From Arthrobacter sp. StoSoilB20 (GTDB lineage: Bacteria > Actinomycetota > Actinomycetes > Actinomycetales > Micrococcaceae), in the NCBI RefSeq assembly GCF_019977295.1, contig NZ_AP024651.1, positions 930,001 to 994,000 on the forward strand: a stretch of 64,000 nucleotides of DNA, written 5' to 3'. A model generated the notes under the pieces. It saw only the letters and a list, made by a program, of their open reading frames with translations, did no database searches and had not been told where the DNA came from. A program made the position numbers and the translations under genes. Positions 26,409 through 63,330 of the stretch are shown piece by piece; within the stretch, counting starts at the first letter, position 1; each line of letters starts with the position of its first letter.

Positions 26409-27155
26409 ATGACTTACAAGCTGATTCTGCTGCGCCACGGCCACAGCGACTGGAACGCCAAGAACCTGTTCACCGGTTGGGTGGACGTTGACCTGAACGA
26501 TCAAGGCCGCAAAGAAGCAGTACGCGGTGGGGAACTGCTGGTTGAGAACAACATCCTCCCGGACGTCCTCTACACCTCGCTCCTGAAGCGGGCCATCAAC
26601 ACTGCCAACATGGCGCTGGACAAGGCCAACCGCGGTTGGATCCCCGTCAAGCGCGACTGGAGGCTCAACGAGCGCCACTACGGCGCCCTGCAGGGCAAGG
26701 ACAAGGCCCAGACCCTCGCCGAGTTCGGTGAAGAGCAATTCATGGAATGGCGCCGGAGCTACGACACCCCGCCGCCGCCCCTGTCCGACGACAGTGAATT
26801 CTCCCAGGCGCACGATCCCCGCTACGCGGATCTCGGCGACGCCCTGCCGCGCACCGAGTGCCTTAAGGACGTCCTTGTCCGCCTGCTCCCTTACTGGGAA
26901 TCGGACATCAAGGAAGACCTCAAGGCGGGCAAGACCGTCCTGGTCACCGCCCACGGTAACTCGCTGCGGGCCCTGGTCAAGCACCTGGATGGCATCAGCG
27001 ATGAAGCCATTGCAGGACTGAACATCCCCACGGGCATCCCGCTGGTGTACGAACTGGACGAGGACTTCCAGCCGGTCAACCCCGGTGGAACATACCTGGA
27101 CCCCGACGCAGCAGCGCAGGCCATCCTCGCGGTGGCGAACCAGGGCAAGAAATAA
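26409..27155 (+). CDS. gpmA: 2,3-bisphosphoglycerate-dependent phosphoglycerate mutase
   Basis: A 248-residue glycolytic enzyme interconverting 3- and 2-phosphoglycerate. The phosphohistidine motif is [10 protein letters not shown] with His10. [11 protein letters not shown], the Glu in [14 protein letters not shown] and the second catalytic His in [12 protein letters not shown] are all present. The insert [14 protein letters not shown] is typical of the dPGM family. The ATG at 26409 has AGGA eight bases upstream; the ATG at 26400 is an alternative. A strong terminator follows 85 bases downstream. Confidence 0.96.
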
Positions 27156-27240
27156 TTCCTCCGCTGCTGCCGCGGCGACTGCTCGGTCGTCCCTCCCTTG
27201 GACGCAGTTCGCCCGCGGCACCTGCTACGGAGCTGGATTG

Positions 27241-35981: not shown

Positions 35982-36034
35982 GCTAAGGCGCCGCAAGCGC
36001 CATCCACCTGGCTAAGGCGCCGCAAGCGCCATCC
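35982..36034 (+). repeat. Direct duplication of a 24-bp segment after rlmB
   Basis: GCTAAGGCGCCGCAAGCGCC followed by ATCC occurs at 35982-36005 and again at 36011-36034. The period is 29 bp. The second copy forms the left arm of the hairpin described next. Confidence 0.95.
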
Positions 36035-36095
36035 TCCGCATGCTCGCTCGTACCTCGCTTAGACGCATGCTTCCGGATGGCCCTTGCGGCGCCTT
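36014..36095 (+). other. Structured repeat element, copy A
   Basis: Outer arms of 21 nt (36014-36034 and 36075-36095) pair with one mismatch. Inside come 3 unpaired nt, a 6-bp GCATGC stem, a 21-nt loop (36044-36064) ending CTTAGAC, the closing GCATGC, and 4 unpaired nt. Copy B at 63064-63125 has the same geometry with other stem sequences. The outer stem ends in CCTTTT, so copy A may also act as terminator for rlmB. Confidence 0.8.
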
Positions 36096-36106: not shown

Positions 36107-36298
36107 ACGCTCTCGCACATCCCCCGGGTGTGGGCTGGACGCTCTCGCACATCCCCTGGGTGTGGGGCGGATGCTCTCGCACATCCCCTGGGTTTGGGCC
36201 GGACGCTCTATCAGTTCCCCTGGGTGTGGGCTGGACGCTCTATCAGTTCCCCTGGGGTTGGGGCGGACGCTCTCGCACATCCCCTGGTTGTGGCCGGA
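36107..36298 (+). repeat. Tandem array of six 32-bp units
   Basis: Six contiguous units of exactly 32 bp start at 36107, 36139, 36171, 36203, 36235 and 36267. Consensus: ACGCTCTCGCACATCCCC then TGGGTGTGGGCTGG. Units 4 and 5 carry TATCAGTT in place of TCGCACAT. There are no unique spacers. The array lies in the convergent gap between rlmB and the nitrilase gene. Confidence 0.95.
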
Positions 36299-40429: not shown

Positions 40430-40576
40430 TCGCGCCAACGGGCCCTATGGATCCCAACCGTAGCGGCCCGCCAAACAACAAGCCGGATGCCAGTTATCCG
40501 GAAGCGTGCGTCAAAGCGACGAAGGAGCAGCACGCGGAGGATGACTGACATCCGGCGGATGTCGTCTGGTTAGGGC

Positions 40577-63005: not shown

Positions 63006-63010
63006 GGATA

Positions 63011-63063
63011 GGCCCGTCCCGCAGGCCCGTCCCGCAGGGCCGTCCCGCATGGCCGTCCCGCAT
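63011..63063 (+). repeat. 13-bp tandem repeat after the FAD-linked oxidase gene
   Basis: GGCCCGTCCCGCA occurs at 63011 and 63024, and GGCCGTCCCGCAT at 63038 and 63051. It starts five bases past the stop codon. Confidence 0.92.
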
Positions 63064-63125
63064 GGCCGGAACGCTCGGCGCGCTCGGTCGTTCCTCCCTT
63101 AGACGCGCGCTGCCGCGTTCCGGCC
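63064..63125 (+). other. Structured repeat element, copy B
   Basis: Perfect 11-bp outer arms (GGCCGGAACGC / GCGTTCCGGCC) enclose 3 nt, a 6-bp GCGCGC stem, a 21-nt loop (63084-63104) ending CTTAGAC, the closing GCGCGC, and 4 nt. The loop is identical to copy A at 18 of 21 positions while both stems differ. Confidence 0.8.
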
Positions 63126-63132
63126 CTGCAGG

Positions 63133-63330
63133 ACGCTGTCTCACATCCTGGGGTGGTTTGGTCGGACGCTCTCTCACATCCTGGGGTGGTTTGGGGGACG
63201 CTCTATCACTTCCCGGGGTGGTTTGGTCGGACGCTCTATTACATCCCGGGGTGGTTTATTACATCCCGGGGTGGTTTGGTCGGACGCTCTTTCAGGTCCC
63301 CTTGGGTTTTGTGGGACGCTCCCTCCTGCC
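63133..63330 (+). repeat. Tandem array of 32-33 bp units related to the 36107 array
   Basis: Units start at 63133, 63166, 63198, 63231, 63284 and 63316 (degenerate). Consensus head ACGCTCTNTCACATCC, tail GGGGTGGTTTGGTCGG. The fourth unit carries an internal 20-bp duplication (63258-63277). The head is shared with the array after rlmB. Confidence 0.92.

Follow-up and report, generated by a model that had tools for sequence, protein, structure and literature searches.

What does a hairpin do whose loop is kept nearly intact while its stems change freely, and which of its two strands is the one that folds? The question is raised by a stretch of 64,000 nucleotides from Arthrobacter sp. StoSoilB20 (hereafter the window), in which an earlier note had described two such elements, each with an outer stem, 3 nt, a 6-bp stem, a 21-nt loop, the 6-bp stem again, 4 nt and the outer stem, and had proposed that selection acts on the structure. 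The reading preferred here, given a probability of about one half, is that the hairpin is strand-specific and recognised by a putative host factor, and that the copies in the window belong to a family of structured palindromic elements that is old and specific to one clade, Arthrobacter in the wide sense.

Both described copies have exactly the geometry reported for them, and their loops do share 18 of 21 bases (Table 1); the list of two was correct for those copies and incomplete for the window, which holds four. Copy 1 starts 37 nt past the stop codon of a SpoU-type methyltransferase gene (rlmB-like), its other neighbour being a convergent nitrilase-type gene, and copy 2 starts 48 nt past an FAD-linked oxidase gene, with an MFS gene next. 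Folding z-scores against shuffled sequences are -8.5 for copy 1 and -3.7 for copy 2. When up to three mismatches are allowed, the loop pattern matches three times in the 64-kb window, against 0.01 expected, and at 14 places across the whole genome, of which 13 were kept and one (L020), whose flanks are without the inner stem, was excluded by eye. All 13 kept copies form the hairpin, three of them with one unpaired inner position. Two further repeats touch the copies of the window: a 27-nt direct repeat with a spacing of 29 (35982-36037) spans the 5' arm of copy 1 and the stretch preceding it, and a 13-bp repeat of about 4.5 copies (63010-63068) lies directly before copy 2 and runs into it.

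Table 1. Hairpin copies and adjoining tandem arrays in the window (positions count from its first letter).
Feature	Position	Strand	Remarks
Copy 1, outer stem, 5' arm	36014-36034	+	21 nt
Copy 1, internal-loop side	36035-36037	+	3 nt
Copy 1, inner stem, 5' arm	36038-36043	+	GCATGC
Copy 1, head (loop)	36044-36064	+	21 nt; pairs 3-15, 4-14 and 7-11, leaving a triloop; tandem G.A on the complement
Copy 1, inner stem, 3' arm	36065-36070	+	
Copy 1, internal-loop side	36071-36074	+	4 nt
Copy 1, outer stem, 3' arm	36075-36095	+	21 nt
Tandem array beside copy 1	36107-36298	+	32-bp unit
Copy 2, outer stem, 5' arm	63054-63074	+	
Copy 2, inner stem, both arms	63078-63083 / 63105-63110	+	GCGCGC/GCGCGC
Copy 2, head	63084-63104	+	21 nt; G4-C14 version
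Copy 2, outer stem, 3' arm	63115-63135	+	
Tandem array beside copy 2	63131-63257	+	32/33-bp unit
Copy 3	27154-27233	+	Between a histidine phosphatase gene and a PhoU gene; covariance model match
Copy 4	40480-40559	-	Variant head, 7-11 pair switched; covariance model match

Considered as a family, the elements share a layout that, on the strand read here, consists of a variable outer stem, an internal loop of 3 nt and 4 nt (mostly TCN and TKCC), a 6-bp inner stem and a head. The outer stems have no sequence relation between loci. The common head of 21 nt, TCGSTCGTNCCTCSCTTRGAC, is itself folded by the pairs 3-15, 4-14 and 7-11, which leave a TNC triloop and two opposed T.C / C.T mismatches. Written on the complement, the same head becomes GSGAG-GNA-CGASC, in which a G-C pair and an S-S pair are followed by the tandem G.A/A.G, then by a closing pair and finally by the GNA loop. 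Another head, 46 nt long, has an additional hairpin on the same base, with the tandem G.A retained, and the other heads found (L117, L118 and L119) sit on the same platform.

Coupled changes affect the outer stem, the inner stem, two head pairs and one position of the internal loop. Among the 13 copies of this genome, which were found by their loop and supplied the structure against which they were scored, double changes occur in 23 of 28 pairs, and none of 500 shuffles scored as high on any of five measures; structures slid along the same copies reach a covariation of at most 0.171, against 0.542, and up to 21 double-change pairs, against 23. A larger sample came from a head-pattern scan of the genome collection (at least 117 loci, with five matches outside Arthrobacter-type records), where 131 regex matches, less six at locus ends, left 120 of Arthrobacter type, all distinct, and the five from elsewhere. 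In this loop-found sample a mean of 8.3 of 10 outer positions pair when the best offset is taken, compared with a shuffled mean of 6.3 and a highest shuffle mean of 6.6, and at least eight of ten outer positions pair in 100 of the 120 distinct matches listed. Within the head, the pair 4-14, whose S positions were left free in the search pattern, is C-G in 65, G-C in 54 and C-C in one of the 120, and the pair 7-11 is G-C in 119, C-G in 24 and something else in four of the 147 heads that fit the scheme, which 11 of 158 short elements do not. Coupling extends to the internal loop: in the 88 of 120 matches that have the 3/4 offset, a third 5' base T or G goes with G in 53, C with T in 30 and C with G in one, with other forms in four. 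These counts come from sequences related by descent and are not independent events. At a distance of some 6 bp from the internal loop mismatches are frequent, and the position there is paired in 36% of 55 short elements and 52% of 33 long ones.

Which strand folds can be approached through the mismatches that each strand tolerates. Raw wobble counts conflict between this genome and its relatives, where one pair supplies about a third of the A.C cells, and observed/expected counts were used instead. With one element taken per locus, these ratios are 0.74 for A.C against 0.29 for G.T, 0.36 for C.C against 0.17 for G.G, and 0.31 for C.T against 0.22 for G.A; the asymmetry runs in the same direction in 94 intergenic and 26 in-gene matches, and the excess mismatches, when read on the complement, are tolerated G.U, G.G and G.A. 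In this genome alone the asymmetry is weak (A.C 0.63 against G.T 0.53), and the raw counts point the opposite way (44 G.T against 28 A.C). Unconstrained folds of the complement form a 2x2 GA/GA internal loop in two of four elements (a long head and L118), and the unconstrained or minimum-energy complement folds of L119 and of window copies 1, 2 and 4 contain no tandem G.A head. Taken together, the mismatch tolerance suggests that the selected fold more likely lies on the complement of the strand read here.

The earlier note had proposed a covariance-model search of this and other Arthrobacter genomes. A model built from the 13 loop-pattern copies finds 43 matches in this genome at E of at most 1 and 41 at E of at most 0.001, four of them in the window, and, at the latter threshold in one draw, 247 matches in 36 of 37 genomes of the genus; the remaining one (G019) has zero. 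With covariation extending well beyond two copies, and with 100 of 120 matches pairing, neither a family limited to two members nor one of unpaired stems was found, and the claim of selection on structure is thus supported. Outside the genus, one of 22 other genomes in the first draw is positive, with one weak match in another family (G040; E of at most 0.001). A family-wide draw of 245 genomes, with 18 candidates scored per genome, gave 20 positives at E of at most 1e-4, namely 16 of the same genus and four of one other genus (2 of 32 genera), and at least two genomes of the genus (G163 and G194) are without a match. Among named records, the model matches Arthrobacter, Pseudarthrobacter, Paenarthrobacter and a single Micrococcaceae MAG. 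The five regex matches beyond the Arthrobacter-type records (Clostridia, a proteobacterium, a Xanthobacteraceae MAG, an Uhrbacteria MAG and Pseudomonas extremorientalis) were rejected, as they are without a model match or an inner stem and their outer arms pair at chance. Carriage by phages or viruses was likewise rejected, a search of viral contigs by head pattern and of phage records having returned zero matches; in a plasmid collection, matches came from two large replicons, both belonging to one Arthrobacter strain.

For the study of genomic sites, 219 distinct elements were collected, 42 of them from this genome, with genes predicted by a codon-usage caller: 148 are intergenic with both neighbours seen, 34 lie at locus edges and 37 overlap predicted genes. 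The intergenic elements comprise 68 in tandem contexts that have, on the strand read here, the end of a gene facing the 5' side, 38 in the opposite tandem arrangement, 39 between convergent genes and only three in divergent spacers, which make up 98 of 335 background spacers of at least 120 nt. In tandem contexts the complement is antisense to both genes in 68 cases and sense in 38. The position just after the stop codon of a plus-strand gene, and the consistent 3'-UTR location expected from it, thus hold in so far as intergenic copies adjoin gene ends and avoid divergent spacers, and fail for the in-gene copies and in view of the variable orientation. Copies turn up at corresponding sites of different species: grouping by shared neighbours yields 36 site groups, of which 22 comprise several loci. 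Each group is defined by one shared neighbour family and, as in the gcv case, may combine two sites that lie close together. Within these groups the arm sequences differ and the pairing is kept. Compensatory change goes beyond shuffles in six (gcv, CopA, gatC, P1 peptidase, topA and group 9) of the eight groups tested, each with at least four distinct 81-nt rows, at most four of 300 shuffles matching the double-change count; it is weak in the DUF4194 group (shuffles as high in 14 of 300 for cells and 103 of 300 for pairs) and not significant at the rlmB site (137 of 300). Orientation relative to the transcribed strand differs at the same sites, with 43 against 24 at gcv (12 more lying at edges), 5 against 6 at gatC and 7 against 3 at P1 peptidase, so that elements have been either inverted in place or acquired independently. 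Tandem duplication on a local scale, both orientations at one site, and decay were all observed. Tandem hairpin arrays at G000:C1 183341-184287, 1842102-1842824 and 4344891-4345521, mostly with 150-220-nt spacing, hold copies that appear degenerate, with many C-to-T changes. A role as a polar replication signal was rejected, since the 19 against 7 elements of this genome are followed in 17 other genomes by 42 co-oriented and 33 opposite (p 0.36), counts that cover elements among the matches listed, assume a terminus opposite dnaA and use several rounded genome lengths.

The 32-bp array that follows each of the two described copies is enriched near the element and is a minority companion, not a regular one. 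In this genome 7 of 39 intergenic elements have a unit in the 150 nt downstream of them, and in others 8 of 132 do, compared with 2 of 223 element-free gene ends, and on these counts the array was rejected as a defining feature. Units resembling GACGCTCTNTCACNTCCCC number 178 in this genome at up to two mismatches, against one for the reversed pattern, and in some relatives inverted 32-bp units between convergent genes look terminator-like by eye. Downstream of rlmB, two loci (L284 and L293) carry a different long palindrome, CCGGAGTTTTGC...GCAAAACTCCG-like, with the CGCTTAG motif placed elsewhere, which is possibly a second palindrome family.

Copies inside protein genes keep the nucleic-acid pair at the cost of amino acids. 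Three proteins carry the element in frame repeatedly: a CopA-like P-type ATPase, in the linker that follows its metal-binding domain; a DUF4194 (MksE-like) protein, in its C-terminal tail; and a P1/S58 peptidase, in a loop. Among the isolated cases is an FAD-binding protein resembling L-aspartate oxidase. The encoded frame and peptide are the same throughout CopA and throughout DUF4194, where the complement is the sense strand in 24 of 25 copies, and another frame or strand is used in the P1 peptidase. The pair 4-14 switches within a single gene site, being C-G in seven and G-C in six rows of CopA, and seven and three, respectively, in P1 peptidase. Of the 13 CopA rows, six with the G-C pair encode KGGTT and five with the C-G pair encode KRGTS, and of the other two rows L097 has diverged and the last is an additional copy from L232; the peptides are never mixed, and two non-synonymous changes (R..S or G..T) are therefore tied together by the fold. 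At DUF4194, loci from 30 relatives comprise seven with the element in the tail, one with a remnant (G033) and 22 with neither, among which G023 illustrates absence; the comparison shows absence and decay, and no clean empty site. The DUF4194 tails of L244, L251, L253, L255, L262 and L269, from species without the hairpin, hold other repeated peptide inserts (GVASGLSEPAASS...GEGAG-like), and the tail is perhaps a hot spot for repeat inserts.

The elements with the long head (100-110 nt) occupy a narrow range of sites: 52 of 53 distinct ones adjoin gcvT, gcvH or glyA (gene families checked by Pfam, one example each), the remaining one being at a contig end, and all nine of this genome lie within two gcv/glyA loci. 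In the gcv site group, short and long heads combined, no fixed orientation to the mRNA was found, as given above. Shared descent and local duplication alone could yield this association without regulation. Among the clustered copies near 4.60 Mb a partner gene was sought and rejected, the genes there being gcvT, gcvH, glyA and a serine dehydratase, with no transposase.

When compared with known systems, the family shares features with several. REP/BIME elements are palindromes that occur in many copies between genes, close to gene ends and at times as inverted pairs, and are associated with RAYT transposases, the RAYT-type REP having a conserved stem with a GTAG-type foot. The Arthrobacter elements are likewise multi-copy, palindromic and near gene ends; in contrast, their stem sequence is free and their head conserved, with no conserved GTAG-type stem. 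A RAYT-type Y1_Tnp transposase is encoded in one of 61 genomes of the genus and not in this one, and the outer stems are unrelated between loci; a RAYT partner and membership in the RAYT-type REP were rejected. MITE-like repeats (ERIC, BOX, RUP) are also short, dispersed and folded, whereas the outer stem of the Arthrobacter family is not conserved in sequence and no transposase was identified for it. Intrinsic terminators share the GC-rich hairpin near gene ends, but a T-tract at the 3' end of the stem is present in only four of 178 elements on the strand read here and seven of 178 on the complement, no terminator-like site was found at the copy 1 or copy 2 locus, and this identity was rejected. 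Like the structured RNAs of Rfam, the family combines a conserved fold with covariation; membership in Rfam 15 was rejected, since the five gathering-score matches in the whole window are all rRNAs and tRNAs and the three matches in 11 element loci fall below the gathering score, none of either set being the element. Rickettsia palindromic elements (Ogata 2000, 2002, as described in PMC10969869) are palindromic families with many copies in frame inside unrelated protein genes, and the Arthrobacter family is like them in having copies both in spacers and in frame in unrelated genes (37 of 219 overlapping genes). It differs from them in belonging to another phylum, in a conserved head with its own coupled pairs, in a head class bound to gcv/glyA and in compensatory change at orthologous sites, a comparison made by description. 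In the accessible part of a 2025 palindrome survey, Arthrobacter is present once, as a table row of counts (PMC12306157), and in the accessible literature, including that survey, PMC10969869 and PMC2864571, no description of the element was found, subscription journals being mostly outside this coverage. The closest kind is that of the Rickettsia palindromic elements and the REP/MITE repeats.

That the palindrome might be selfish DNA, spread by some machinery and tolerated without host function, like the Rickettsia palindromic elements, would suit the many dispersed copies in both orientations, the in-frame positions in a linker, a loop and a C-terminal tail, and the remnant and absence at the DUF4194 site; it seems unlikely, however, since copies at orthologous sites keep their fold by compensatory change, Y1_Tnp is nearly lacking, and neither the viral contigs (by head pattern) nor the phage records gave a match. 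Very improbable is an explanation without any selection, whereby template switching (quasi-palindrome correction) keeps the arms paired: it predicts complementary arms and in-place inversion, and opposite orientations are seen at some sites, yet two isolated head pairs and a non-Watson-Crick internal-loop couple also covary, the common mismatch about 6 bp from the internal loop goes uncorrected, and the mismatch types are asymmetric between strands.

A further reading, possible if still doubtful, is that of a structured RNA element; tandem G.A pairs and a GNA loop, as read on the complement of the head, are typical RNA features. The hairpin would then be part of a transcript (an mRNA 3' UTR, an intercistronic spacer, coding RNA or a small RNA) and serve as a binding or processing site, with the long heads tuning gcv/glyA/sdaA. 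The proximity to gene ends, the avoidance of divergent spacers, the 52 of 53 long heads at gcvT, gcvH or glyA and the sense orientation of the complement in CopA and DUF4194 agree with this, but the orientation varies at the same sites (gcv, gatC and P1 peptidase), and in tandem contexts the complement is more often antisense to both genes than sense. Since the orientation with respect to transcription is not constant among orthologous sites, the evidence leans slightly towards DNA rather than mRNA, and recognition in extruded or single-stranded DNA, or in a transcript produced independently, has a somewhat higher likelihood than a classic cis element of the mRNA strand. Under the preferred reading of a strand-specific hairpin recognised by a host factor, the selected molecule would be the single-stranded hairpin of the complement strand, in which the head mismatches would be read as tandem G.A pairs (G-S-GA-G-GNA-C-GA-S-C), and the putative factor would read the head and the internal loop, with the outer stem needing only to pair. 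Against this reading stand the weak asymmetry and contrary raw counts of this genome, the complement folds of copies 1, 2 and 4, the sense orientation of the complement in CopA and DUF4194, the weak or insignificant compensation at DUF4194 and rlmB, and the missing replication-strand bias in 17 other genomes.

Carried further, and held tentatively, this would make the family a nucleic-acid docking hairpin used throughout the genus, in which different heads can be exchanged on one constant platform, read as a folded single strand by the putative host factor at several dozen sites, some of them within genes where it would force coupled amino-acid changes, and with one head type devoted to glycine/serine one-carbon genes. 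If this is true, it would be a bacterial case in which protein sequence visibly yields to selection on a nucleic-acid fold, and the long-standing question of a host role for palindromic repeats would become testable, natural variants in copies, orientations, head types and element-free sites being present across dozens of sequenced Arthrobacter-type species.
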